From Macrolepiota albuminosa (Eukaryota > Basidiomycota > Agaricomycetes > Agaricales > Agaricaceae), in NCBI GenBank assembly GCA_027475525.1, contig JAMWFC010000046.1, positions 434,001-498,000 of the forward strand: 64,000 bases of DNA, given 5' to 3'. Position numbers and translations under genes: made by a program. Shown in pieces: positions 1-49,370 of this stretch; position 1 is the first letter of the stretch, and the number at the start of each line of letters is the position of its first letter. Under the pieces are notes generated by a model. The model was not told the DNA's origin. It ran no database searches and worked only from the letters and a program-made list of their open reading frames with translations.

Positions 1-1313
1 GAGGGCGTGTCCCAAGAGCAATTCGAGCATGCCCTGGAGAGGCCCCGGGGCCTGCCTTCCCATGCTTGGTGTGTCAGTAATGGCCCGGTAGGTGGTCTCG
101 TGCTCCCAATCTTTGTAGCTGATTCGAGCGCCTAGTGCCTCCACTGCGCCTGCCGGCAGGTCTCCTGCCTGTTCGAAGCCCCGGCCACCTCATCTCAATG
201 GGACATCTCAGTGTGCGAGGCGTGTCGCCTCAATCACGAGTGGTGTTCCGTCTCGGCGATGTGGAGGGCATACGGTACGTTGCGGGAGCAGGGGTGGCCG
301 TTGGAAGGAGTGACTCGGAGGATGGGGGTGGAGGAGAGGACCTGGGTAGGGGAGCCGGAAGGGGTCCTGGAGGAGGTGGCTGCTGGGGGTTCGGGAGGGG
401 TGACCGCGGGTAGTTTGGGGGTCCGGGTAGGGGGCCGGGGCCGGCCCATGGTGCTGATCATGCGCTGGGCCACCTGGTCCAGCACCCAGGGGCAGGCTGG
501 GGGGCGACCAGACAAGGGGAAGCGGCGGGCGTCACCCAGTCCCTCCCCGGGGCCCTCTAAGAGGGCGCGTCTGCCTGTGGAGACCCTGCCCCCAGCTTCT
601 CCAGCGCAGCTCTCCCCGGCGACGTTCTCTCCCCTGTCCGGGCGACCACTGGATGTTGAGGTGAGGGCTCTACAGGAGCGCCTCGAGCAGGCCAACCAGG
701 AGCAGGAGGAGCGTGAGGAGGGGGCGAGGGAAGAGGTGGCGCTTCGGAGGGGGTTGGAGGAGGACTGCGAGACGGCTCTCCGGGAGCTGGAGGAGGCGAG
801 GGTGGCCCGAGGGGGAGCCGAGGCTCAGCTGGATGCCCTGAGGGCCAGGCTAGAGCAGGGGGTGGGGCTCCTGGAGCAAGGTCCCTCGAGCCCGGAGTTG
901 GTCAAGGCCTTGCGTCGGGATGTGGTTATTGGGTGCATGGCCTCCTTGAGTGAGTGCCTCCCCTTCGTGGCTGAGTCGGACTAACGTTTCCAGGCTGGGC
1001 TCGGGAGCACCACCTGCTCCTGGACGGGGCCGCCGCGGCGTTTGCGTCTCTTCAAGAGGGGCTGTGGTGGGAGGGAGGGAACCCCGGGGTGGAGCGGGGC
1101 CTGGATTTGCTGGGGAGATTGGTGGGTGCTCACCGCCGGAGGAACGTTCCGGCCCCGGGGTCGTGGTTCGAGCGTGTGCTGGACGAGGGCAAGCAGCTCC
1201 CGTCCTGGGATCAGTTAGCCGAGGAGGTATGGCGGGAACACAGTCCGGAGGGGGTGGGGGAGGATTTCCAGGGTTGGCCGAGGGGGAGGTCTGGCAAGGG
1301 GAGTTCCGGCTAG
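1..1313 (+). CDS. antisense accessory ORF of A1, Zn2Cys6-like plus coiled coil (5' partial)
   Basis: Predicted exons are <1-87, 136-949 and 994-1313, with a TAG stop at 1311-1313. The introns are 88-135 (48 bp, GT..AG) and 950-993 (44 bp, GTGAGT..CTAAC..CAG). Removing both gives one open frame that aligns end to end with the antisense gene of A2; unspliced, the frame is broken. The protein starts within the conserved GLPSHAWCVSNGP stretch, then has two C-x2-C-x6-C clusters separated by 15 residues (first cluster from codon 136, second near 214-245), a basic KGKRRASP stretch, and a Glu/Arg-rich coiled coil encoded around 650-900. The C-terminal block includes WAREHHLLLDG and ERGLDLLGRLVGAHRRRN. 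The spacing resembles fungal Zn(II)2Cys6 binuclear clusters but the loop is longer than usual, so DNA binding is inferred only. It is transcribed against the host element's gag-pol. Confidence 0.7.
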
Positions 1314-8643: not shown

Positions 8644-9383
8644 TGTCAGGTTCTGCTGAGTCGGGGGCTTTCTGGGAAAGCAATTGCCCTTACAATGCGG
8701 ACTTGACCCATGGATACTCAGGTGTCTGGAACTCCGGGGCTAGGACTCCGGGGTTCAAGACGTGGACAGGGGAATCCCGGGAGAGGGAACTTAGTCTGGG
8801 GGTTTTGGGTGGTGGGTAACTGGGGAGTTCGGGTGGGGGTCAGGTCGTGAACCGGAGGTTGTAAGACGAGACCAAGTTAGTAAGTTAACATCGCAAAGTG
8901 CGTACCAGTCTTAGAGCACGCGATTATCCAAGCGTGCCAGTCAAGCGTGCCAGTCAATGTGTACCAGTCAAATAGAGGGCACGCAACAATCCAAGTAATC
9001 CAATGTAATATCAAGACTAGCAAATACAACAGGGAACTATGCTATAAGTACTACGGGACTGGGTCTCGGGGTTCCGGGGTGTCTGGGATGGGCTCCGGGG
9101 GTCATTGAGTAGCGGCAGGGGCTGTATACCAGGATCGCGCGTGTGGGGCGCACGATCAATTGGTGCGGAGGGAGCTGTGATGCGTGATGCGTGATAGCCG
9201 GAAATGAGTCGCGTGATCTGATCGTTGATCGGGGCTGGCAGCAGCTGATGGTGGTCCTTGATGCGTGTGATGGCGGTGTCGGTGGTTGTGATGGTGGGGT
9301 GTGTCCTGCAAGGTCAGAGGAAGGGTCCTGGATGGTGTTCTGGGGGTGTCCCGGGGTGGGCCCGGAGGGGAGGGGTCATGACA
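8644..9383 (-). repeat. 5' LTR of A1
   Basis: A 740-bp LTR, on the plus strand TGTCAGGTTC..GGTCATGACA. The flank on the 5' side is GAGAC (9384-9388). The partner LTR lies beyond the window, so the target duplication cannot be tested. Confidence 0.92.
9006..9052 (-). promoter_or_regulatory. LTR core promoter and predicted transcript start
   Basis: On the sense (minus) strand a TATA-like ACTTATAGC (9041-9049) lies about 28 nt upstream of AGTCTTGATATTA (9018-9006). That spacing fits a TATA-directed start at the A. The same pair occurs in the other family-A LTRs, and a TATATA-AGTCTTGATATT pair occurs in the 9384-9791 fragment. Confidence 0.6.
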
Positions 9384-23103: not shown

Positions 23104-23832
23104 TGTCAGGTTCCGCTGAGTCGGGGGCCTTCCAGGAAAGCGATCGCCCTTACAATGCAGACTTGACCTACGGATACTCGGGTGTCTGGAACTCTGGGGC
23201 TAGGACTCCGGGGTTCAAGACGTGGACAGGGGAATCCCGGGGAAGGGGATTTGGTCCGGGGGTTTTGGGGTGGTAAGTAGCTGGGGAGTTCGGATGGGGG
23301 TCGAGTCGTGAACCGGAGGTTCTAAGACGAGACCAAGTTAGCAAATTAAAGTCGCGAAGTGCGTACCAATCTTAGAGCACGCGAGTATTCAAGCGTGCCA
23401 GTCAATGCGTACCAGTCAAGCAGAGGGCACGCAACAATCCAAGTAAAGCAATGTATGTATCAAGACTGGCGAATACAACAGGGAACTATGCTATAAGTAC
23501 TACGGGACCAGGTCTCGGGGGTCTGGAGTGTCTGAGATGGGCTCTGGGGGTCATTGAGTAGCGGCAGGGGCTGTATACTGGGATCGTGCATGTGGGGCAC
23601 GCAATCAATTGGCACGGAGGGAGCTGTGATGCGTGATGCATGATAGCCGGAAATGAGTCGCGTGATCTGATCGTTGATGGGGGCTGGCAGCAGCTGATGG
23701 CGGTCCTTGATGCGCGTGATGGCGGTGTCGGTGGTTGTGATGGCAGGGCGTGTCCTGCAAGGTTGGAGGGAGGGTCCCGGATGGTGTTCCGGGGGTGTCC
23801 CGGGGTGGGCCCGGAGGGGAGGGGTCGTGACA
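23104..23832 (-). repeat. solo LTR of family A with TSD AAGGC
   Basis: 729 bp, plus strand TGTCAGGTTCCG..GGGTCGTGACA. AAGGC lies on both sides (23099-23103, 23833-23837). It splits a cluster of short repeats. Confidence 0.92.
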
Positions 23833-26089: not shown

Positions 26090-27177
26090 GCCCGGGGAGC
26101 ATTGGGATGCTGTTGATAGAATTCCCGGACTAAGGCAGGGGCATGGACATTCTCTTGTGGCTCCCAGGAGATGTCCTTGATTCTGTAGCCCTTTCACTTG
26201 ACCTTGAACTGAAGCTTATTCCTAAAGAGTTGGCTGTCTAGGATCCGCTCCACTTCGTACTCTTCTTGGGTGTTTACCAGAACTGGGGGTGGAGGTGGCT
26301 GTGGATGTCGACCTGGGATTGGATCCTCTGGGGCTGGAGAAAGCTTCACCACATTGAAGACTAGATGGAGTCGACTCATTCCACTAGGCAGCTTGAGTCA
26401 ATAGGCAAGTGGGCCTACCTGCCGTACTATAGGAAAGGGTCCTAGACAACGGTGAGAGAGCTTCTGAGAACGTCGGGTGGTAGCAATGTCAGAGGCATCC
26501 AGGTAGACTCGATCTCCAGGCTTGTACTTGGGGGCTGGAGTTTGTCCACAATCGTAGTAGCGGGCCATGTCATCCTTTGCCTTAGCTAAAGCTGCCTTGG
26601 CTTCCTCCTGGGCTGCCTTCATCTGATCTATGAACTTGTTGACAGCTTTGTTCTCTGAAGATCGTCCATGAGGCTCGAATCCCATCCAAGGATGTCGACC
26701 AGTATCTAGAAGGAAAGGAGACATCTGGGTGGCAGCATGTACACGGTTGTTGTACTGGAACTCTGCCTCTGGTAATAGGTCATCCCAGTCATCCTGTCGT
26801 TCATTGCAGAAGAGCCAGAGATACTGTTCTAGCTCCTGGTTGACACGCTCAGTCTGGCCATCAGATTGGGGGTGGTAGGCTGTGGAAGTGTGGAGTTTGA
26901 CATGGAGGAGGCGATACAGTTCTCTAGTAAACTCTGCCACAAACTGAGGTCCACGGTCCAAGACGTAAGCATCTGACAACCCATGGAGCTTCCAGACATG
27001 CTTTTGGTACAGATTGGCAGCGCCCATGGCTGAGCAAGTAGTGTGTGTTGGAATAAAATGAGCATGCTTGCCACAGAGATCCACTACCACCATGATTGCA
27101 TCATATCCATGAGAATCAGGTAACTCAACAATGAAGTCTACCGAGGCCACACTCCAACACTCAGCTGGAATAGGCAA
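26090..27177 (-). pseudogene. element E integrase core and chromodomain
   Basis: The core (27177-26398) has VDFIVELPDSHGYDA, VLDRGPQFVAEF and [13 protein letters not shown] (D,D,E all present), and the GPY/F-type LGPFPIVRQVGP. After a stop the chromodomain continues in 26379-26194 (EEYEVERILDSQLFRNKLQF) and is broken by a stop (at 26194-26196) where WKGY is expected; remnants run on to about 26090. The zinc-binding N-terminus is mostly missing. Confidence 0.8.
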
Positions 27178-27308
27178 TGGATGAAGTTGTTCTATAGGAG
27201 GCTGATGACGAGGCTTAGTCCGAAGGCAAAGATCGCAGGTATGCTCTGTCCAGGTTTGTGATGCAGAGAGAAGTCAAAGTTGGCCAGATACAAGGACCAT
27301 CGAGCCTG

Positions 27309-28753
27309 TCAGCGGTTAAGTTTCTTGGCTGTCCGAAAGTACTCTAAGTTCTTGTGATCAGTCCACACCTCGAATTTATGCCTGGCACCCTCAAGAAAAT
27401 GTCGCCACTCCTCAAATGACCGAATGATAGCTAGCATCTCCTTGTCATGGATCTCATAATTTTGCTCCACAGCATTGAGACTCTTGGAGTAGAAAGCCAC
27501 AGGATGCCACTTACCATCCTCCCTCAACTGTTGAGAGAGAACGGCCCCAGTAGCAAAATCTGAGCTATCAGCTTTGACACGGAAGGAAGAATCATCGTCT
27601 GGGAATATAAGGACAGGCTTTGAAGTGACTGTCTGTTTGAGGGCGTCAAAGGCTGTCCGCTGTGCTGCATCCCAGTGCCAAGGAGTGTCCTTAGTGGTGA
27701 GATCGAAGAGGGGCCGGGCATGGTGTGAGAAATCCTGAATAAACCTCCAGTAGAAGTTGGTGAAACCCAGGAAGGCCTGAACCTCCTTAGGCTCTGGCCA
27801 CTCCGCTACACCAGCCACCTTGACTGGGTCCATCTCAGCTATTCCATGAGAGATGATCAGTCCAAGATATTCAACCTTAGTCTGCTCAAACTCGCACTTC
27901 TCTGGCTTAAGATAGAGCTGGTGCTGGCGAAGACGTTCCTGCATAATCCGACAATGCTCCTCTAGAGTCTTGGTATAGATGAGAATATCGTCAAGGTATA
28001 TGCACACAACACCTTCTGCTATGAGGTCTTGGAAAATGTCATTCATCATGGTCTGGAAGGTGGCAGGGCTATTAGTGAGGCCAAAGAACATTACCAGAGG
28101 TTCAAAGAGTCCACAATTTGTTTGCAATGCCCCCTTCCACTCATCTCCTTCTTTGATGCGCACATTGTTGTAGCCCCAGCGGACATCCAACTTGGTAAAG
28201 TAGTGTGCACCTCAGAGGTTGTTGACAAGCTCTGAAATGAGTGGTAAGGGGTAGCAATTCTTCACAGTCATCACATTCAAGACTTGATAGTCCTAACCAG
28301 ACGTAGAGATCCATCCTTCTTCTTAATGAAGAAGACTGGAGAGGCCATCGGAGACTTTGAGGGACAGATGCGACCAGAGTCTAAACTCTCCTGCAAAAAG
28401 GCATCAAGCTCATCCTGTTCTTTGGGAGAGAGTGGGTAGACCTTGCAGCTAGAGGGCTCAGCATTGGGCATAAGCTCAATTGCATGGTCCCACTGCTTAC
28501 GCTCTGGCAGGGAGTCAAATGATGCTTTAGAGAAAACATCCTCAAAGTCTTGCAGGTGATGAGGAACTGCATCTCGGAATGACTTAGGAGCAGAGTTGGC
28601 AGCAAATGCCTGAGCTAGCCCCTGGAAGGTAGTTTGGCTAGCTCTAATCTCTGGCCTGATGTAATCCAGCAAGTTTGGTGGTGTGGAGGGTGAGGGAAGC
28701 TTGAGTAGTCTGCACCTGAGTCTCCAGAGCAAGCAAGCAACCCCAGGCATCAT
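27309..28753 (-). pseudogene. element E reverse transcriptase and RNase H
   Basis: The N-terminal part (28753-28277) has [12 protein letters not shown]. After a frame break, 28190-27309 carries DVRWGYNNVRIKEGDEWKGA, CIYLDDILIYTK and the RNase H block VKADSSDFATGAVLSQQ with IHDKEMLAI. A stop follows KKLNR. Motifs are those of an active family, but the copy is split. Confidence 0.85.
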
Positions 28754-38041: not shown

Positions 38042-38783
38042 TGTCAGGTTCCGCTGAATCGAGGGCTTTCCGGGAAAGCGACGCCCTTACGATGCGGACT
38101 TGATCTACGGACACTCGGGTGTCTGGAACTCCGGGGCTAGGATTCCGGGGTTCAAGACGAGGACAGGGGGTAATCCCGGGAGAGGGAACTAGAGTCCGGG
38201 AGTTTTGGGTTGGGGGTGGCTGAGAGTTAGAGGGGGTCAAGTCGTGAACCGGAGGTTCTAAGACGAGACCAAGTTAGTAAATTAAGAGTCGCGAAGTGCG
38301 TACCAAAACTTAGAGCACGCAAATACTAAGGCGTGCCAGTCGAAGCGTACCAAACAAGGCATACCAGTCAAACAGAGGGCACGCAATATCCAAGTAACAG
38401 TTATGCAATATCAAGACTAGCGAATACAACAGGGAACTATGCTATAAGTACTACGGGACCGGGTCTCGGGGTTCCGGGATGTCTGGGATGGGTTCCGGGG
38501 GTCATTGAGTAGCGGCAGGGGCTGCATACCGGGATCGCGCGTGTGGGGCGCGCGATCAATTGGCGCGGATGGAGCCGTGATGCGTGATGCGCGATGGCCG
38601 GGGACGAGTTGCGTGATCCGATCGTTGATCGGGGCTGGTGGCGGCTGATGGCGGTCCTTGACGCGCGTGATGGCGGTGTCGGCGGTCGTGATGGCAGGGC
38701 GTGTCCTGTGGGGTCGGAGGGAGGATCCCGGATGGTGTTCCGGGGGTGTCCCGGGGTGGGCCCGGAGGGGAGGGGTCGTGACA
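38042..38783 (-). repeat. 3' LTR of A2
   Basis: 742 bp, plus strand TGTCAGGTTCCG..GGGTCGTGACA. The flank on the low side is CACAG (38037-38041). The LTR also lies directly upstream of the plus-strand accessory gene, so it may supply its promoter in the reverse direction (inference). Confidence 0.93.
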
Positions 38784-38800
38784 TCACCCCCCCCCTCAGC
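38784..38800 (-). promoter_or_regulatory. polypurine tract of A2
   Basis: Sense GCTGAGGGGGGGGGTGA abuts the 3' LTR. Its position places the antisense gene inside the element, between integrase and 3' LTR. Confidence 0.8.
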
Positions 38801-38913
38801 GCCGAGACCCTCCGAGGCGCGCGTAGCCGGTGGTTCGGACCAGGGGTCAACCGTGGGATCCGGCACCTGACCTGCCACGTATCGAAAAAAAATTTTTACC
38901 ATCAAACTCAACC

Positions 38914-40741
38914 ATGTCGCACACCCCGACGCATTCCCCGACGCCCCCGCCCACCAACGAAGTCGCGCCTTTGGTCGTGTGGGAGGCCCGGGACGCCCGG
39001 TATCGGCGCCGCCTGGATCAGGAGCGTGTCGCAGCGCTCTTTCAGCAACGTAGGTGCATTCGGGTGTTTTTCGCTTGGCCCGATCAACCTCCCTTTTTTA
39101 GAACAACAAAACGCACCTGCCCCGGAGGCGGGACCCAGTCGCCTGCCGGAGGCTGCCCCGGAGGCACCGGTCAGTCCCCCGCCGTCGGTTCCCGCGGTAG
39201 CCCCTCAGGCGGGTCCCAGTCGCCCCGCGCCCACGGTCGCGCGGATGACCGTCCGACCCCCCCGCCCTCCCCCTTCACCTCGTCCCCGCTTGGTCGCCCC
39301 GCGTTTTCGTCAATCGGGGATGGCTCCCGGTACCGTGTCGGTGGTCCCGGAGGATCTGCGTGTCCCGTGGGCCGCCGTGTCGCAGTCGATGTTCGAGCAG
39401 GCCCTTGAGAGGCCCCGGGGGTTGCCCACCCATGCGTGGTGCGTTAGTAACGGGCCGGTAAGTGACTTTGTACCTTCATGGCCGCCGCTAACGTCGACCC
39501 AGTGTGTGCACTGCGCTCGCCGGATGGTGCCATGCCATTTCGAGGCCCCTAGCCCGTCGTCCTGGAGAGACTCGTCGGTGTGCGAGGCATGTCGCGACAA
39601 CCACGAGCGCTGCTCCATTTCCGCTTTGTGGAGGGCGCGTTGCATGGCGCAGGAGCAGGGGTGGCCGTTGGGGGGTTTGACACGCCGGATGGGGGTGGAG
39701 GAAAGGGACTGGGTGGTCGAGCCGCCGGTGGGAGCGCCGGAGGGTTCCGGGGCAGGCGCCGCCCCGACGAGGGGGTCTCGGGTCAGGGGGGCGGCGGGGG
39801 TGGGGAGTCGGGGCCGGCCTGTGGTCCTGCTCACGCGCCGGGCAACCCAGGCCAGGGCAAGTCGTGCCGACAAGGGGAAGCGGCGGGCGTCGCCCAGTTC
39901 TTCCCCCGGCCCTTCCAAGCGGCCACGGCTCTCCCGGGAGTCCTCTTCCCCGGCCCCTTCCCTGCGCCTGTCTCCGGCGGTCTTCTCCCCCTTGTCGGGG
40001 CGGCCGCTGGGCGTGGACGTGAGGGCGCTCCAGGAGCGCGTGGATCGGGCCGAGCGGGAGAGGCAGGAGCTGGTTGACCGCCATCAGGTCACAGCTGAAC
40101 ACCTGCGGGGGGTTCGGACGACCCTGGCCCGGAGCGAGGAGGCGGTGAGGCAGGAGGCGGCAGCTCGGCGGTGGATGGAGGAGGACCGGGGGGCGGCAGC
40201 TCGGGAGCTGCAGGAGGCGCGGGTTGCACGAGGGGCGTTGGAGGCCGAGCGGGACGCGCTACGGGCCCGGCTGGAGCAAGGGACGGGTCATCCGGAGCCG
40301 GCCCCCCAGAGCCTGCAGGACGTGGTCGTCGCCCGGATGTCGGCTTTGAGTGAGTGGTTGGAGCCCCTCTACCGAGTTCCCGTGCTGATTCTCCTAGGTT
40401 GGGCCCGGGAGCACCGCCTGCTCCTGGACGGGGTGGCTGCGGCGCTGGCCTCTCTGCAGGAGGGTCAGCGGCCCGAGTTGGCAACCCCCGGGGTGGAGCG
40501 TGGGTTGGACCTGCTGGGGAGACTGGTCTCGGCGCACCGGCGGAGGAATGTCCCAGCGCCGGGCACCTGGTTCGAGAGGATTCTGGACGAAGGCGAGCCT
40601 CTTCCGTCCTGGGACCAGCTGCTGGAGGAGGCGTCACGGGAGTACGTTCCGGGAGAGCGGGAGGGAGAGGAGCCCCGGGGTTGGCCGTCGCGGCCCAGCG
40701 GGGGAGAGGGAGGGGAGGGGGGCCCGGAGACCCCTCACTAG
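38914..40741 (+). CDS. antisense accessory gene of A2, Zn2Cys6-like plus coiled coil, three introns
   Basis: Predicted exons: 38914-39049, 39102-39457, 39503-40349, 40398-40741 (about 560 residues). Introns are 52, 45 and 48 bp with GT..AG ends; the second has GTAAGT and CTAAC. Intron 1 must be removed to join the frames (codon restored as CAA); introns 2 and 3 keep frame, but A1 has introns at the same points with different lengths. The start MSHTPTHS follows an A/T-rich leader. Domains: Pro-rich N-terminus; CVHCARRMVPC and CEACRDNHERC (both C-x2-C-x6-C, 15-residue loop); a basic stretch KGKRRASP; a Glu/Arg coiled coil (about residues 320-430); conserved C-terminus WAREHRLLLDG. It could be a nuclear DNA-binding regulator, but function is not shown. 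It is antisense to gag-pol. A host gene captured by the element is an alternative origin. Confidence 0.75.
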
Positions 40742-41008
40742 CAGTCTTTTTTGCCGAACTTTCTTGACGGTCCCGTTATGTATCCTATAGTGTAGTGGTA
40801 AATCAAAATGTATATACTTGTTCTGCCGAGGTAAGTAAGTAAAGAGAGAGAAAAGAAGGACAGAAACATCGTAGGTAATTTGGCGGGAGAGAGAAATTCA
40901 ATTGCTATGATGGGAAAGGGTAATAAAGAGGAGCGAGAAAGAAGGAAAAACAGAAAGTATACATGGGAGTTGAATCCCTACCGAATCCAGAGGCGGGGGT
41001 TACGCCCA

Positions 41009-42673
41009 CTACTGCCGTCTGTGAGTCCTGCGCCCCGGAGGGTCGTCTCCCGGGTGCTGTTGTTGGAAGTCCCGGAGTTTGTCGAGGGCGCCTTCGAGGT
41101 TTTTGCGTGGTTCCCAAGTGTCGTCTTCCGGGCCGTATCCCTTCCACCGTACGAGGAAGTGGGGTCGTCCACGAATGTTCCGGGAGTCGAGGATGTCTTC
41201 AACCTCGTAGTGGTACTCGTCCTCGACCTCGACCGGGGGAGGGGGTTCAGGTCGTCGTCCAGGGAAGGGATCCGGGGGGTGTCGCTCCAGGAGGCGGACG
41301 TGGAAAACCGGGTGCAGTCCTTTTAGTCCCGGGGGAAGTTCGATCTTGTAGGCGTGGGATGAGACCTTCTTCAATATTTTGAACGGGCCGAGACGCTTGT
41401 GATCGAGTTTTGGGGAGGGCCGGTGGGTGCAGAGGTGTCGTCGATCTAACCATACCTTTGTCCCGGGGGTCCAGTCGGGGGTGTCTTCCCGTTTCCGGTC
41501 GGCGTGTTTCACGTAGGCCCGGTTCGCGGTGTCGATCTCTTCCCGGAGAAACTCGTGAAGAGACTGGAGATCCCGGGCGACCTCGTGGGCGGCGTGTGAC
41601 GGGATGTCCCGGAGCGAGAGCGTCAGTCGAGGATGGTACCCCTTGTTGGCAAAGAAGGGCGATACCCCGGTGGCAGAGTGCGGCGTGTTGTTGTAGGTGA
41701 ACTCCGCCAGGGGGAGCTCAGTGCGCCAATCGTCCTGCAAGTAGTTGACGTACAGCCGGAGGTATTGCTCGAGGGACTGGTTGACCCTTTCGGTCTGACC
41801 GTCGGTTTCGGGGTGGTAGGCGGTAGAGAGGTTAGTCTTTACTTCAAGTGCCTTACACAGGGAAGTCCAAAACTTGGATACGAAGAGGGGGCCACGGTCG
41901 GAGACGATGTCGTCCGGGAGTCCATGTTTGGCCAAGACGTGCTCGAGGAACAGTCGGGCGAAGTCCGTGGTATGGCAGGGTAGGAAGATGCCCTGTTTGG
42001 TTAGCCTGCACACAACGACGAGAATGGCATCGAACCCTTCAGATTCCGGGAGTTCGACGATGTGATCCAGGGATATGGAGGACCAGGGGCGACATCCGAC
42101 TGGCAGGGGTTTCAGGAGTCCGTATGGTCGGTGTCGGGGGACCTTGGCCCGGAGGCAGGGTTCACATGATCGAATGTAGCGGGTCACGTCCTTCTTCAAC
42201 CCTGGCCAAAAGTAAGTCCGGGAGATGAGCTGGAGGGTCTTACGTATTCCAGGATGTCCCCGGAGCTTGTGGTCGTGGTGTTGGCGGAGGACGTCGTAGC
42301 GAAGTCGGGCGTGATCCGGGACGTAGATGCGGCCGTCCCGGAGGAGGAGTTTCTCGTCGGGGGACAAGGAGAAGGCGGGGTCCCGGTCGGTTCCGTCGGA
42401 AGAGTTTCGGGGGTCGTGATCGGTGAAGTACTTGTCTCGGGGAGCGCGGCGGATCTGGTTCAGGGTTCCTTCATTGTTTAAGATCAGTACGGCATTCAGA
42501 TGTTCGGGAGGGATCACCACGCGATGATTGAACGCATTGCGTTCCGCCTCGAACGACTTCTTGGGGTAGACGTCCGGACGACGGGTGAGGGCATCGGGTT
42601 TGGCGCCAAGTCGTCCCGGGCGGTACTGGATCGTGAAGTCGTATTCCGAGAGGATCTCGGACCATCGGGCCTG
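41009..42673 (-). CDS. A2 integrase with chromodomain
   Basis: Inserts element cDNA into the genome. Visible in order: HHCC zinc domain ([18 protein letters not shown]), catalytic core with [30 protein letters not shown] and [13 protein letters not shown] (D,D,E), GPY/F-type [20 protein letters not shown], and a chromodomain ([18 protein letters not shown] then [15 protein letters not shown]) before a basic tail. It continues in the frame of RT-RNase H and is parted from it only by a TGA at 42674-42676. An opposite-strand gene follows 268 bp downstream. Confidence 0.92.
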
Positions 42674-44509
42674 TCATCGACTAAGCTGTTTGGTCGTGGT
42701 GAAGTACTGCAGGTTGTTGTGATCTGAGTAGACCTGAATCCGGTGTCGGGCTCCCTCGAGGTAGGCTCGCCACTGCTTGAAGGCTTCGACGATGGCGAGG
42801 AGCTCCTTGTCGTAGATGTCGTAGTTGAGCTCGGCGTTGATCATGGACCGGGTGTAGAAAGCGACTGGCCGGGGCTCCCCACCGTCAGGCTCCATCTGTG
42901 AGAGGATCCCGGCGATGGCGTAGTCGGACGCGTCACATTCCAGGATGATCGGGAGGGCCGGGTCGTAGTGCCAGAGTACCGGGGCGACTGTGAAAGCCTC
43001 CTTGAGCAAGTTAAAGACGCTCTGGCACTTACTGTCCCAGTTCCAGGCGGTGTCCTTGCGCGTGAGCCGGTTGAGAGGTTTTGTGATCCCGGAGTAGTTG
43101 TCTATAAACCTCCAGTAGAAGTTAGCGAAACCCAAGAAAGACTGTACTTCCTTGATGTTCCGGGGCTGCGGCCAGTTGACGATGGCCTCGACCTTGTGGG
43201 GGTCCATGCGAATGCCATTCGGGGATACTATGACGCCAAGATACTCAACCTCTTCCGTATGGAATGAACACTTCTCGGGCTTGGCGTGGAGGTTGTGCTC
43301 CCGGAGGCGCTCGAGGACTTGCCGGACATGCTTCTGGTGATCCTCCGGTGAGTCGGAATAAATGAGGATGTCGTCCAGGTAGACGATCACGAAGACGTCA
43401 CTCATGTCGTGGAAGATGTCGTTCATGAAGTATTGGAACGTGGCGGGGGAGTTAGTCATTCCGAAAGGCATCACAAGGTACTCAAACAGACCATACCGCG
43501 TGCGGAACGCGGTTTTCCACTCGTGTCCCGGGGCGATGCGGACGTTGTTGTAACCGGAGCGGAGGTCAATCTTCGTATAAACCTTGGCACTGCGGAGTCG
43601 ATCGACCAGATCGCCAATGAGCGGGAGCGGGTAGCGGTTCTTCTTGGTGATCTTATTGAGTCCCCGGTAGTCGACACAGAGTCGGAGCGAGCTGTCCTTC
43701 TTCTTGGCGAATAGAACCGGGGCTCCGGCGGCGGAGGCGGAGGGTCGGATGAATCCCTTACCGAGCATTTCGTCGAGGTAGTCCTTGAGAGCCCGGAGTT
43801 CGACCTCCGACATGTTGTAGACCTTGCCGAAAGGGGGGGTGGCTCCTTCCTCGAGGTCAATGGTGTGATCATAGGGGCGGTGAGGGGGGATCTCCTTGGC
43901 GTCTCCTTCGGAGAATACGTCAGCGAACTCGTGATACTCCGGGGGAACTACTTCTCGGAGGATTTGCTCCTCGGTTTTCTGTTCCGGGGGAATGGCGTCC
44001 CCTCGTAGGTGTTCTTCCGGGAGTGAAGGCGAGGTGTGCAGCTGAAACGTGGGAGTTCCATCCCTCATGAGGCGGGCGAAGGGAGCGGCCCCAATGATCC
44101 TAATGTCGAGTGCGCTCGGGTCGATCGGTGTTGCGGAATCATCGGCCGGAGCGGGTGTGACGCGTGTCTGAGACCGGCAGGGGTAGTTCGGCCCCTTGTA
44201 CTTGTTCCGAGGAATGTTTGGGGGTCGATCGGGGGCCTTGCGGTCTCGGACGGGCGTGGGTGGTGCAGGCGTGGGGGGCGTGGCAGTCGTCCCGGGGGTG
44301 TTGGGCGTCGGGTCGTTTCCTAGGGCCCGGAGGTGCACGGCGGTCGAGGGGTGGTCTTCGGGTCCCCGGAAGGTCATGGTGAGTGTCCTCCAATCGATAT
44401 CGGGGTTCGTGTTGCGCAGCCAGGGCAGCCCCAGCACCATCGGGGTCGATTTGTGAAGTCGCGTGACCAGGAAGTCGGAAGTGAACTCGTAGTTGTTGTC
44501 CAGGGTCAC
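42674..44509 (-). CDS. A2 reverse transcriptase and RNase H
   Basis: Follows PR2 in the same frame. RT fingers ([18 protein letters not shown]), [24 protein letters not shown] and the palm VYLDDILIYSD are all present. RNase H has LECDASDYAIAGILSQ and NYDIYDKELLAIVEAFK. The frame ends with a TGA after KQLSR, where A1 has Arg before QARW. An uninterrupted relative would read on into integrase. Confidence 0.92.
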   Translation of the reverse strand: MTLDNNYEFTSDFLVTRLHKSTPMVLGLPWLRNTNPDIDWRTLTMTFRGPEDHPSTAVHLRALGNDPTPNTPGTTATPPTPAPPTPVRDRKAPDRPPNIPRNKYKGPNYPCRSQTRVTPAPADDSATPIDPSALDIRIIGAAPFARLMRDGTPTFQLHTSPSLPEEHLRGDAIPPEQKTEEQILREVVPPEYHEFADVFSEGDAKEIPPHRPYDHTIDLEEGATPPFGKVYNMSEVELRALKDYLDEMLGKGFIRPSASAAGAPVLFAKKKDSSLRLCVDYRGLNKITKKNRYPLPLIGDLVDRLRSAKVYTKIDLRSGYNNVRIAPGHEWKTAFRTRYGLFEYLVMPFGMTNSPATFQYFMNDIFHDMSDVFVIVYLDDILIYSDSPEDHQKHVRQVLERLREHNLHAKPEKCSFHTEEVEYLGVIVSPNGIRMDPHKVEAIVNWPQPRNIKEVQSFLGFANFYWRFIDNYSGITKPLNRLTRKDTAWNWDSKCQSVFNLLKEAFTVAPVLWHYDPALPIILECDASDYAIAGILSQMEPDGGEPRPVAFYTRSMINAELNYDIYDKELLAIVEAFKQWRAYLEGARHRIQVYSDHNNLQYFTTTKQLSR

Positions 44510-45388
44510 GCGTCCCGAGTGAGACCTTTGGATGGGGCCGGAGGAGGAGGGGGTGCCGTCGAGGCGTTGCAGGCGGAGGGGCTGGTCGAGGGAGTCGTGG
44601 GGGAGGTCGAGAGCGTCGCTGATGAATACTCCGGTGGCTCCGCTGTCGATGAGGGCCGAGACTGGTCCTGGGGCGCCGTCCAGCCTGGCATTGATGATGA
44701 AGGATCGGGAGGAACGGGACTGGAGCCCGGGGGGTGGTGGAGGCCCGTCCTTCGGGGCAGGGTTGGGGGAGTGGGGGATGTCGAAGGGGAGTTGCTGGTC
44801 ATCGGGGGTCGGGTCCCAGGTCAGGCGAAGGGTGAGGTGTCACCAATCGATGCGGGGGTTAGTGTCCCGGAGCCACGGGAGTCCTAAGACCAGGGGTGCG
44901 GAAGGGTGGAGTTTCGTTATCAACATCCGGAGGTTGTGAGTCTGTCCGTTGGCGAAGGTAACGGGCATACGCACGAAATGAGTGATATCCCCCGCCGTAG
45001 AGGCGTCGCCGTGGAAGAGGCAGAGCCGTACCAGGACCGGGAGTTGCTGGGCGGGTTCCGGGGCAAGGGTAGACCATGCTTCGTCGATGAAGTTGTCGGT
45101 GGCGCCGCTGTCAACGAGGGTGTTGAGGGGAGTTCCGGAGGGGGTGAGGCGGGTTTTGAGGAGGAGGGAGTGCGAAGAATGGGAGGGTAGGTAAGCCGTG
45201 AGGGTGTCCTGTATGAGTGCCGTAGAGCGAAGGTGTGAGACCGGGGCGGAGAAGACGTCGGGGTCGATTCCGCGATTTAGGGCGTCTTCCGGGTCTAAAT
45301 CGCCGGGTCGTTTTCCGAATACTCGTAGGTGGCGTCCTCCCCTTCGAAGGTCCAGGTGGCACGTCCCATGACCTGTCGTTTGGGACAC
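44510..45388 (-). CDS. A2 tandem aspartic proteases PR1 and PR2
   Basis: PR1 (45388-44843) has LVDSGATDNFIDEAW (active-site codons 45099-45113) and VLGLPWLRDTNPRIDW. PR2 has ALIDSGATGVFISDAL (44633-44647) and VLGLPWLRNTNPDIDW (extending below 44510). A single TGA at 44840-44842 lies between them, where A1 keeps CGA. Retropepsins normally act as homodimers; two linked copies could fold as one unit (inference). The frame is -1 relative to gag, and gag and pol overlap at 45295-45388. Confidence 0.88.
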
Positions 45389-46822
45389 TCGGAGATGAAA
45401 TGGTCTTTCTCACCGCAGAGTATACAGACACCCTCCCTTCTCCGTCGTTCCTGCACATCCGTCGGGACTTCGATCCAGGGTCGTCCCTTCTTTTGAAGCC
45501 GGTTGGCTCGGAGGGCCTCCTCGTCCCGCTCGTCGTCGAAGTCGAAGTCTTCGGGGTCTTCCGGGGGTTCCTCGGGGCTTGGCACGTCGCCCGGGTCGTG
45601 GGCAGCCACGGCGGCGTTGAGTTGGGCCTGGGGGCGGGCGCCGCTGCCGGGGTTAGCATTGGGCGGGCCGCGACTCACCGGGGGTCGGCTGCCAGGGAAC
45701 GCGGGGGGACCAGGGTTTCGACCTTGGGGATTGGGAGCTTCGCCGGAGGGCCAAGGGGGTCCTCCTCTAGGGTTCCAGGGGGGTCGGGAATTCAAATACT
45801 CGCTGCGGTCTTCCCAGTAGCGTTGGTCGATCTGCATGACGAGGGCCTTGTATCCGTCGTAGGAGGGTTGTTTCGGGGCGAGTCGGAGGACGTCCTTGAT
45901 ACGTTGTGGGAGGGCGCGGCGGAGGGCGTACCGGAGGGCGCTGTAATTCCAACCTGTCTCGTAAGCTTCCTTTTCAAAACGTACGATGAAGGTTGTGAAA
46001 CGTTCTTCAGAGCGCATCCGGAGATTGAAGAGGTTGTCCTCGGCCTCGGCCACGGTGTCGTAGATTCCGAACTTCCCGGAGAACTCGTCGACGAAGGCCT
46101 GCCAGCAAGCGAGTGCCGGATTGTTGGGGTCGAACTGAATGAGGGCCGTGTAGTGATCGAAGGCGATCCCCTGGAGGTATGATGCGGCAAAGGCCACCCG
46201 GGAGCTGTCAACCTGAAACGTGAGCGGCTTTGCCTGAAACGTATTAAGACACTGAGTGAGGAAGGTACGCCATTTCCGGGGGTCCCGGCCCGTGAAAGCG
46301 TCGGGCTTTTGGATGTCCAGTCGTCCTTCGCGGGCGAGGGCGTCGCGAGCGTCGTCCGGTCCGGCAGCGTTACGGGGAGGGGGGCCAGCATTGTAATAAT
46401 AGTAGTAATGATTACCCCCTCCTCCTTGAGGAGAAAAAGCACCAAGGGCGGGACCCCACCCGCCGGGAGGTCCTCCTCCGGGTGGCTCACCTGGAGGTCC
46501 ACGCCCGGGAGGTCCGTTGTCCCAAGGGGGTTCGTTCCTGCCAGGAGGGGGCCCAGGTCTCCACGCAGGGAGTGGCGGAGGTGGAGGGCCTGGGGGTCGT
46601 CCTCGAGGTTCAGCTGGGGGTGGTGGAGGCGGTCGGGGAGGGTTCGGCGGCGTCGGGTCAGGCGGAGGGGGATTAGGTGCTGGGTCGGGTGCCGGGTTGC
46701 GCGGGGGACGTTCAATCCGGGAGGGTCGAGCTTGCATCGGGGGTTGCGGGGGGTTCCGTAGGTCGAAGTGGGGTGGCGGATCGCGGCGGAAGTTGCGTTC
46801 CGGAGGGGCCGGGGCGGACGTG
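45295..46822 (-). CDS. A2 gag, 5' truncated by the gap
   Basis: Open from the gap to a TAG after ENDPAI. Pro/Gly-rich N-terminal region with HYYYYYN, capsid-like part (WRTFLTQCLNTFQAK, GIAFDHYTALIQFD, GKFGIYDTVAEAEDNLF), acidic stretch (EDPEDFDFDDERDEEA) and a zinc knuckle CILCGEKDHFISEC (C-x2-C-x4-H-x4-C). It packages element RNA. A GAAAAC run eight codons before the stop is shared with A1, but it is not a canonical slippery heptamer. Confidence 0.9.
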
Positions 46823-46922
46823 NNNNNNNNNNNNNNNNNNNNNNNNNNNNNNNNNNNNNNNNNNNNNNNNNNNNNNNNNNNNNNNNNNNNNNNNNNNNNN
46901 NNNNNNNNNNNNNNNNNNNNNN
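46823..46922. other. assembly gap of 100 N
   Basis: Exactly 100 N, the usual code for unknown gap size. Left is gag of A2; right is unrelated sequence, so the 5' part of A2 (rest of gag and the 5' LTR) is missing here. Confidence 0.97.
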
Positions 46923-48487
46923 ACGTTAGCTTTACGCTCATGCGGGACCTCGTAGTCAGGATCATAGTCGGACTCCATTCCATATTGACTGAAAGCAAAG
47001 TAGAGGCGCCATGTAAGGCGTGTCTCAAAGTCTTCCCAAGCTGATTTTATTAAGTCCTTATTCAACTTAGTCGGAAACATGAAGTTCATGCCTGGGCTTA
47101 GATGGAGATGAATGTCGTCAGGCAACGTTACATTAGGCGATGTATGTACAAAGCTACAATAACGAACTGCGGATAGTATGTTAAGTGGAACAGTCGATAG
47201 TAACGTTCGAATAACTAATAGCTGCGGTATTGTTAGATACCAGTCAGGGTACGTAGAGGGGTCATCGTACTTACAAATGACACGCCTGAAGATCAGGCTT
47301 TCCCCTTCCCCTTCCTTGCCTTTTGCGAAGTCAAGGACTTGACTTTCTTCAACTTCTTCACCGTGCCGGACTTCTTGGACTTGCCGGGGCCAGCCTTCGA
47401 GGATGAAGGACCGGGGCCACCTCAAGAGGTGGGCGTGGAGGGAGCGCCGGACTTCTTCTTTGGGCCACCATAAGGATTGAAGAAAAAGAAGAGTGTCGAT
47501 CAATAAAAGATCTGAAACGTGTCCAGAGACAAAGAGTCCATGCCCAAAGCGAAGAACAAATGTTCTTCGTCGTTGGTCAATGTTCTCCGTCAAGGTAGGA
47601 GTACTCACTTTGCCGGCGAGAGCTTTGCTGACAGCTGAGTAAACCATCTTTCGAATCGAATCGGAAGTGATTTTGCCCATCTCGACATCGGCATCGTTCT
47701 TGATGGTGGACTTGGCCTTCTTCTTGGAGGCAGAAGCGAGTTCCTGCGACTTCACCATGATCCAAGCGTGAACGCCAATCGGGACCAAGTCCTCTCAGAA
47801 GGCATTGTACACCTGCTGAGGAGCAGGGTCCGTTACTCATCCAGAGAGTTGAACCTCTCCGTTTGCGTCGTTGGCACAAAGATTGGCCGTTGAGCCGAAC
47901 CTTTGATGGCCTCCCATCGGGCAGAGATGGTGGGATGGAGGCCGTCCCAGATGTTCTGGGGGCGCAAGAGGGACTCCAGGTGCGTCACATCACGAAGCTT
48001 TGCAGCGAGCGCAGCAGTGAACACAGCCTTATTGCCGTTGACAGCGGTCTTAGCAAATATCAGCCAGATCATTCTGACCAGTGGCAGTCCCTGCGAACAG
48101 CGACAACAGCTGAACGCTTGGAGAGGCCTTCCCCTTGAAAGCATGGGGAAGTCCGTCCCGGGACGCAAGGTCCTCCCACCGACCAACGGTGGACCTAGCG
48201 GCGACAAGTTTCCCTGCCACAGCTTGGATCTGCATAGGCGGATCAGGAAGGGGGACGCGGTACTCCGAGGGGAGTGCCACGAGCAGTTCCGACAACGTCG
48301 AAGCTGCTGGGTACTTGGCGTACCGTGCCGACAAATCATCGACGCTGGGGGCCAACACGGCGGCTGCAGCATCAGCATGATCGTCATCGTCAATATCAAA
48401 GTGAGAAGACGAAGAATAAGCAGGCGCACGATCCACGGCCATAGCCGTATCAGCCCGAGAGTGGGTAGAACGCTGAGTACGAGACAT
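46923..48487 (-). pseudogene. candidate Penelope-like (Coprina-type) element, N-terminal part
   Basis: Starts with MSRTQRSTHSRAD at 48487. A one-base insertion near 48055 (between LADIC and KTAVNGN), a frame break near 47830 (after FNSLDE), and TGA codons at about 47794, 47423 and 47300 disrupt it. A Lys-rich block (GTVKKLKKVKSLTSQKARKG) is bounded by likely introns (GTGAGT near 47605, GTAAGT near 47276). The last exon has LHLSPGMNFMFPTKLNKDLI and WEDFETRLTWRLYF. These recall, from memory, the L-S-x-G-L-N-F-x-P-T start of Penelope-like RTs. RT itself is beyond the gap. The CCCTAA repeats by the start codon fit telomere-associated members. It could instead be another fungal repeat protein. Confidence 0.42.
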
Positions 48488-48505
48488 GAGGAGAGCGATT
48501 GCAAC

Positions 48506-48577
48506 TTAGGGTTAGGGAGGAGCCTCTCGACTTCGAGCGAAGGGAGAAGGAGAGGGCGACGGTAGGTCTGAGGTGTA
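48506..48577 (-). promoter_or_regulatory. 5' leader with telomeric CCCTAA repeats, copy 1
   Basis: On the minus strand, CTCCCTAACCCTAAG ends 20 nt before the ATG at 48487. The about 70-bp leader is almost identical to 58633-58703. Confidence 0.7.
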
Positions 48578-49370
48578 GTCATGGAAGCCTCCATTCGACA
48601 CAGGTGGGGATGATGCGCCTCGGCTATTGCCAACGTTTGGGTACTTTTACCAAGGGTACCGCGCGTCAAAGAACCAAGAGGTCACTGCAAGAGGTTTTTA
48701 CACGCATATTCGGTGTCATTCGGAGCGTCAGAGCGTCTGCGTCCATCCGCCACGTAGCGGGAGTGCAATGCTACGGCACACATCCTGGTGAGCGTCAACT
48801 GTTATCAACGTTGCCCCTGCCTTTACTAAGGGCAGGACTCAATGAGCGTCTTACGTGGCGTACGCGTTCCACAGATCCTCAACAGCGCCCTCTGCTCTTC
48901 TGACAAGGGAAAACTGCTTGGCACGTACCCTTAGTTTCCGAAGTATAAAGACTATATCTTAAGGGACGCAACGGCAGCGTGCTGCCGTACCCATTTGGGA
49001 AATTGGCACGATTTGCGTTCCCCCAGTGGGGTACTTGACCATCGATGATGCATCCATGTCCCCCACTGCCATTTAGTCGTTGAACTGCACCCGGTCTATC
49101 AGGGTAGTGAGACCTGTGAGATACGGGCTTGGCTAGTGATTACCCATTTCAGCTTTCGCATCATCTGCTGGACTGGATTGTTACCCCGTCGTCACAAACG
49201 ACGTGTTGCGACTCGTTTCCGAGCGACAACGGTACCAGACAGCTTTAGGGCGTCCCAGAACAGTTTTACAGTGTTGCCGTCGTCAGACGACTTCCCTGTG
49301 TGTGAAACCACGTTGTACAGCGGATGATCAAGTCCAGAGGACAGGGGGCACTGCCTGACCCTGTATAGCT
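48578..49370. other. no recognisable gene
   Basis: Upstream region of the preceding element and spacer. Small ORFs only. Confidence 0.5.

Follow-up and report, generated by a model that had tools for sequence, protein, structure and literature searches.

Does a retrotransposon of a basidiomycete carry a gene with introns on the strand opposite to its own coding strand, and if so, what might such a gene do for the element? The question arises from a 64-kb stretch of the Macrolepiota albuminosa genome (100 Mb in 129 contigs), C6:434001-498000, hereafter the window. An earlier note, made from the letters of the window alone, had described an antisense gene of four exons in a chromovirus, lying between its integrase-chromodomain and its PPT/3' LTR and coding for about 560 residues once three GT-AG introns are removed.

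The antisense gene and its host element

On joining the exons - 1683 nt, or 560 codons and a stop - the junctions given in the earlier note prove to be exact, and the position of the gene is likewise borne out, with pol on the minus strand and the gene on the plus strand. The element copy in question, A2, is laid out as follows:

38050-38783, minus strand: 3' LTR, outer end not exactly defined; matches 2105-1375 (97%), 8652-9383 (87%) and 23112-23832 (86%)
38784-38913, plus strand: polypurine tract (PPT) side, followed by a conserved leader that reaches the antisense ATG and is a putative 5' UTR/promoter; 87-97% identity in 17 of 17 pairwise comparisons
38914-39049, plus strand: exon 1 of the antisense gene; median dN/dS 0.14
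39050-39101, plus strand: intron 1, 52 nt, GT...AG, from the joined model and the copy survey
39102-39457, plus strand: exon 2, an N-terminal part rich in proline that ends in the first conserved Cys; median dN/dS 0.20
39458-39502, plus strand: intron 2, 45 nt here and 44, 45, 47 or 48 nt elsewhere
39503-40349, plus strand: exon 3, two C-x2-C-x6-C clusters, a basic NLS-like patch and a helical region; median dN/dS 0.29
40350-40397, plus strand: intron 3, 48 nt here and mostly 46-48 nt elsewhere
40398-40741, plus strand: exon 4, conserved C-terminal domain (WAREHRLLLDG...AHRRRN) and stop; median dN/dS 0.22
41009-42673, minus strand: integrase with chromodomain at the 3' end of pol; cut-off passed by Integrase_H2C2, SH3_Tf2-1 and Chromo, missed by rve
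42674-46870, minus strand: remaining pol and the part of gag common to other copies; RVT_1, RNase H, protease, gag and zinc-knuckle matches

The order RT, RNase H, IN, together with a chromodomain (E 2.7e-14, residues 489-538 of the 554-aa integrase ORF), identifies the element as a chromovirus. Its 3' LTR has an inner edge at 38783, and no 5' LTR of A2 was found within the 64-kb window. From about gag residue 59, near 46.87 kb, towards its 5' end the copy no longer resembles most gag relatives, and A2 is therefore truncated or chimeric at this end. The stretch 46870-47794, within a 360-aa minus-strand ORF (46712-47794), recurs at C122, twice on C27, at C6:960502 and on C95 with 77-89% amino acid identity, and the 5' end may be chimeric with another repeat. 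A drop to about 45-60% identity between A2 and a second element copy in the window, A1, at 46780-48880 had prompted the idea of a second variable cassette upstream of gag. This was rejected: most scored gag copies begin matching at about residue 59-60 of the A2 ORF, and a few places share the upstream stretch (e.g. C122, C27, C6:960502 and C95), with two places on C114 matching from residue 23.

Upstream of the antisense ATG, all 11 type representatives have an A-run/T-run motif, and small variants occur upstream of that motif. Past the antisense stop, a poly(A) signal was found in 5 of 17 sequences against 3.0 expected, which is not convincing. The stretch is GC-rich, with long spurious ORFs on several frames.

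Introns and selection across copies

Introns 2 and 3 are not proven from the window copy alone, because both are open there and divisible by three, giving a stop-to-stop ORF of 717 codons (38588-40741). We therefore turn to other copies, where the layout was read among 37 loci wherever both ends of an intron could be placed. Intron 1 starts with GT in all 31 copies placed; its AG was located by script in 29 and is visible in the other two. Intron 2 runs from GT to AG in 29 of 30 copies, the exception (L024) being a boundary set upstream by a partial hit, while intron 3 has GT in 34 of 34 and AG in 31, the other three acceptors having been misplaced because the hits beside them were partial or shifted. 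The length of intron 2 is 45 nt (13 copies), 44 (6), 47 (5) or 48 (3), apart from three long spans that come from duplications or an incomplete hit; that of intron 3 is 47 nt (17), 46 (9), 48 (4) or 45 (1), with three misplaced. Lengths that break the frame are thus frequent: for intron 2, 11 of 30 cases measure 44 or 47 nt, and for intron 3, 26 of the 34 cases listed measure 46 or 47 nt. As these numbers are not divisible by three, many copies need splicing to hold the reading frame. The introns show CTRAY-like branch sites. When 11 distant copies (L039-L060) are compared with the window copy, exons are 63-79% identical and introns 40-73%. In three copies (L015, L016 and L028), short tandem duplications take in the whole of intron 1 or 2 together with adjoining exon sequence.

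Substitution patterns point the same way at the protein level. Nei-Gojobori estimates give median dN/dS values of 0.14, 0.20, 0.29 and 0.22 for exons 1 to 4 (78 pairs each), all four exons showing an excess of third-position substitutions. For the whole gene the median is 0.245 (78 pairs, range 0.16-0.64), and the window copy against 12 others gives 0.16-0.41; the corresponding median for the C-terminal part of the integrase is 0.193 (66 pairs). Within gene types, however, dN/dS is 0.53 for the gene versus 0.15 for the integrase. Taken together, comparison of the copies supports a spliced, selected protein-coding gene on the antisense strand.

LTR elements replicate through RNA, so that introns on the genomic strand are liable to loss. 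That the element has kept three introns on the opposite strand across diverged copies is evolutionary evidence that transcribing this strand and splicing the product are important to it.

Presence of the gene in the element family

How general is the gene among related elements? A DNA search of the genome gave 60 matches (40 of 645 candidates scored), a protein search with exon 3 gave 218 (138 of 1188 candidates scored), and a protein search with the integrase scored 78 places out of 4510 candidates. An exon-3 match at the right distance downstream of the integrase is found for 44 of the 78 scored integrase copies and, by hand comparison, lies on the opposite strand to the integrase in all 44. 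Fifteen of the other 34 copies were fetched, and the gene is antisense to the integrase in every one; in 14 each of the four exon regions is wholly or partly present, and L057 has only exons 1 and 4. Counting the 59 of 78 scored integrase copies that were examined, with 19 outside the count, the gene is present in 58, plus one deleted form (L057). Stops occur in 20 of the 138 scored exon-3 matches (hand count) and in 32 of the 78 scored integrase matches, the integrase being twice as long and both lists favouring good matches. The earlier note had looked to such a survey for a verdict, with a gene missing from most copies or riddled with stops counting against its reading; the outcome is in the gene's favour.

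Models were built for 52 loci; at 28 the spliced frame stayed open over 430 codons or more, and 19 of these 28 have the standard exon-intron layout. Some of the other 24 failed because the models were built strictly, not because the gene had decayed. Among the in-frame stops of the 32 integrase copies TGA predominates, as would follow from change of CGA to TGA by CpG cytosine deamination or a RIP-like process. Gene types form groups of equal-scoring open exon-3 matches on many contigs (for example, eight at 285.7 bits and seven at 213.8 bits), which suggests, from match scores, that several types multiplied recently in parallel.

Homologues in Termitomyces

Outside M. albuminosa, a first protein search and a profile search each returned one relative, the Termitomyces protein P0002 (8000 candidates scored per search). 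With P0002 as query, 40 proteins including itself were recovered at E up to 0.1 (8000 candidates scored), all from Termitomyces (strains T159_Od127, Mn162, J132, T112 and T32_za158). The window cassette is matched by 39 of the 40, the exception being P0006, and the alignment of P0002 crosses junctions 2 and 3 without interruption. Two of the 40, P0017 and P0038, run on into the antisense reading of the window integrase-chromodomain (about 41129-41737) with 47% identity (E 7.6e-31 and 3e-15, respectively). Their annotations have read through into neighbouring pol, which places the gene at the same position in at least two Termitomyces elements. The C-terminal region, WAREHRxLLDG...HRRR, is also found in the Termitomyces proteins.

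The cysteine module

The earlier note had described two C-x2-C-x6-C clusters and a basic patch. Both were found: the clusters are separated by 15 residues, and the patch is NLS-like and common to the Termitomyces proteins. Eight aligned proteins, P0002 among them, have seven invariant cysteines in the pattern W-C-x5-C-x2-C-x6-C-x15-C-x2-C-x6-C, and an eighth is nearly invariant. The full pattern is present in 24 of 28 open models and in 12 of the 40 Termitomyces proteins, many of which are partial; parts of the module are absent or altered in P0003, P0013, P0024, P0027 and P0029.

Is this a Zn2Cys6 domain, as the earlier note's wording 'Zn2Cys6-like' would have it? Fungal Zn2Cys6 domains have the spacing C-x2-C-x6-C-x5-12-C-x2-C-x6-8-C. 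The two C-x2-C-x6-C units are shared with these regulators and the spacing fits except for the linker of 15 residues; the window protein further differs in having an extra invariant Cys upstream and a near-invariant Cys downstream. Whole proteins score below the Pfam gathering score of 21 bits for Zn_clus (PF00172), with 9.4 bits for the window protein and up to 17.3 bits in 8 Termitomyces proteins; the family is listed for 5 of 8 aligned whole proteins (best E 0.0087). A Zn_clus profile search of this kind was what the earlier note had proposed. When pieces were trimmed to 67 residues, which favours a pass, 4 of 10 came out above the cut-off (22.1-23.3 bits) and 6 below it or unlisted, and with those four passes an initial statement that no sequence reaches the cut-off was dropped. 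An hhalign comparison with 14 host Zn_clus pieces gave a probability of 91% over 23 columns. The match spans profile positions 13-37 of 39, the second half of the domain, and pairs the protein's first four cysteines there. Weak PDB matches (E 0.55-1.7) are to Zn2Cys6 proteins, namely CBF3 subunit B, AlcR and PUT3. The earlier note's wording is therefore fair as regards cysteine spacing, and there is a partial profile match, while whole proteins remain under the cut-off and half of the domain is covered; judged on sequence, the module is probably a relative of fungal Zn2Cys6 modules, not a confirmed member.

In Pfam scans, whole proteins reached no transcription-factor family cut-off, and matches to ATG16 and APOBEC, both below cut-off, were set aside. 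The coiled coil of the earlier note survives in part: the stretch is helical and rich in charge, but heptad periodicity at p<0.06 is seen in only 4 of 8 copies tested. Zn2Cys6 regulators bind DNA sequence-specifically at CGG triplets. In the 300 nt before the ATG, CGG-N0-12-CCG occurs 2-9 times per type, 66 in total versus 45 expected from shuffles, the 11 sequences being related and non-independent.

Old gene types on a younger backbone

An identity profile of 11 type representatives delimits a further feature:

38994-40945, unstranded: deeply diverged, partly reassorting cassette with approximate edges

Identity drops after about +80 of exon 1 and, in 11 comparisons, climbs from 0.56 to 0.88 at 40950, the divergent part giving way near 40945, ahead of the pol stop. 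An abrupt boundary at the ATG itself was considered and rejected, since exon 1 still shows an identity of about 0.9 as far as roughly +40 and of 0.86 as far as +80. Outside the cassette the element is more uniform. LTR identity is 87-96% in all but two of 17 comparisons, both of them partial, which give 67% and 77%, and the integrase end is 89-94% identical in the 10 comparisons that reach it. Elements with an integrase 97% identical to that of the window have exon-3 proteins anywhere from about 47% (L047 and L048) to 95% identical. When 52 loci are joined by single linkage, thresholds of 80, 85 and 90% identity leave 2, 11 and 25 groups, respectively.

Among 26 near-nonredundant loci, pairs of far types have a median dS of 0.705 for the gene versus 0.274 for the integrase, the gene value being higher in 216 of 216 pairs. 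Within types (59 pairs) the medians are 0.069 and 0.156, respectively, though the within-type class was itself delimited by divergence of the gene, a definition that in itself pushes gene dS down. A uniformly higher mutation rate of the gene is disfavoured by this, since within-type gene dS lies below integrase dS.

Do gene and integrase share a history? We compared trees of the gene (1674 columns) and the integrase (840 columns); groups were named after inspection of the trees, and the p values are to that extent optimistic. The integrase tree rejects gene type 1 (p-AU 2.9e-5) and type 2 (2.3e-5) as clades, and the gene tree in turn excludes both L023+L044 (1.4e-4) and an integrase group of nine rows (5.9e-4). 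L023 is a clear example: its gene is 99% identical to that of L020, while its integrase is 91% identical to that of L020 and 94% to that of L044, with the L044 gene at 71%. Gene and integrase distances nevertheless correlate (Mantel r 0.55), and for one of the forced clades the test gave no rejection (p 0.14), indicating that reassortment is partial. The comparison of gene with integrase shows recombination, at least in part, of old gene types onto a more uniform gag-pol-LTR backbone. Ordinary template switching during reverse transcription could provide the route.

What the gene may do

Taking the evidence as a whole, we consider it probable that the gene product is a nuclear accessory regulator of the element. 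The gene is an accessory gene of the chromovirus, located antisense between pol and the 3' LTR; its introns would be removed from a transcript of the plus strand whose start probably lies in or beside the 3' LTR, the LTR being a likely source of the antisense promoter. Introns would survive since reverse transcription copies genomic RNA of the other strand. The protein, its Cys module presumably binding zinc, would most likely be nuclear and act on the element's own chromatin or transcription. On the other side stand the whole-protein scores below every transcription-factor cut-off, the altered Cys modules of some Termitomyces homologues, the open models at only 28 of 52 loci, the partial nature of the reassortment and the gene's within-type dN/dS of 0.53.

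The main alternative, to which we give a distinctly lower probability, is that the protein helps replication - for example in nuclear import of the pre-integration complex, RNA export or choice of integration site - with the old types a by-product of cassette swapping. The basic patch and the conservation of the protein suit any nuclear role, and the available portions of one account suggest such roles for plant antisense ORFs (PMC7264820). The deep diversity of the gene would be unexpected for a helper, however, given that among the best matches listed scored integrases are 94-98% and gag proteins 87-97% identical to those of the window at the amino acid level.

It is doubtful, but worth considering, that the protein is instead a type-specific self-limiting or immunity factor, with rare types escaping repression and negative frequency-dependent selection keeping many old types. 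The excess depth is found in the cassette and is absent from the integrase, divergence within types is shallow, and types reassort; yeast Ty1 and Ty1', moreover, have distinct restriction mechanisms according to the accessible part of the source (PMC12530519). Against this, no type-specific cis target was found, the LTR and leader being largely common to types in 17 comparisons, and recombination with old copies could also give deep types. The pattern of types thus fits, without proving, type-specific self-limitation under frequency-dependent selection. Lambdoid phages, with their immunity regions, offer an analogy for a shuffled cassette of this sort. By that analogy, and as a speculation we would put forward only tentatively, the cassette could be an immunity-like locus: a spliced antisense nuclear self-regulator whose old types are under frequency-dependent selection and are shuffled among similar backbones.

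That the antisense transcript works as RNA, through a dsRNA trigger or interference, with the reading frame incidental, seems to us improbable. Some 1.8 kb of genomic RNA would be complementary to the transcript, and an RNA role has been proposed (PMC7264820, in the part available), but purifying selection at the protein level in all four exons, conserved splice sites and diverged introns argue otherwise. A chance open frame, which the spurious ORFs of this GC-rich stretch might bring to mind, or a single recent capture of a host gene is scarcely credible in the face of purifying selection and conservation in many diverged copies and in Termitomyces.

The gap in age between gene and integrase poses a testable question: why are old types kept in one accessory gene when the element is more uniform elsewhere? 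An answer would bear on self-regulation of mobile elements and on the role of antisense ORFs in plants and fungi.

Known antisense genes of retroelements

Zhao et al. 2011 reportedly described Boty-like elements of Botrytis cinerea with an antisense gene, brtn. The sources available in part likewise place brtn antisense in these elements (PMC7264820, PMC8365987, PMC4227169, PMC5987419), whose gag-pol has a chromodomain (PMC4227169). Boty thus resembles the window element as a fungal Ty3/gypsy element with an additional antisense gene. The available portions of the brtn accounts mention no introns, Cys module or reassorting types, and Botrytis proteins were absent from the matches of the homologue searches (8000 candidates scored per search).

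In plants, antisense ORFs (aORFs) are found in the region between pol and the 3' LTR in most copies of Grande (gene23), RIRE2 and Retand (TRP28) (PMC7264820, PMC11963269, both available in part). Excerpts of the same sources describe gene23 as nuclear with its own promoter (PMC7264820) and predict DNA binding for TRP28 (PMC11963269). The window gene is alike in orientation, region and presence in most copies: an antisense coding region lies between pol and the 3' LTR, and it is kept in most family copies with conservation like that of gag-pol, dN/dS being near that of the integrase and amino acid identity much lower. It differs in that the aORFs belong to plant lineages, Retand being a non-chromovirus, and in its three conserved introns; the word 'intron' does not appear in the main text of PMC11963269. 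Pfam scans of the window protein and its relatives gave no match to TRP28.

HBZ of HTLV-1 is a spliced gene encoding a bZIP protein. Like the window gene, it is antisense beside the 3' LTR and spliced, and its product is nuclear, as is predicted for the window protein; we note a functional likeness and claim no homology, since the protein and the virus group are different. The related literature, in its available parts, ascribes to HBZ a nuclear role and an antisense promoter in the 3' LTR. As a class, then, antisense accessory genes are already known (Boty, Grande and Retand). In the literature covered, with subscription journals mostly outside its scope and several sources available in part, we found no account of a three-intron antisense gene with such a Cys module, nor of old types that reassort on a younger backbone.

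Other copies in the window

The AT-rich stretch between an LTR at 23112-23832 (86% identical to that of A2) and the RT/integrase ORFs above it at 26398-28211 gave no antisense gene match at E 0.01. At the start of the window, the gene recurs in A1, as the earlier note had observed:

1-1313, plus strand: the antisense gene again, from the last part of exon 2 through exon 4, of another sequence type; an inverted solo LTR follows at 1375-2105

Here the end of exon 2 occupies 4-87 or 7-87, exon 3 136-948 and exon 4 996-1241. The inverted solo LTR, of the same family, lies inside A1 directly after the antisense gene and is 97% identical to the 3' LTR of A2.
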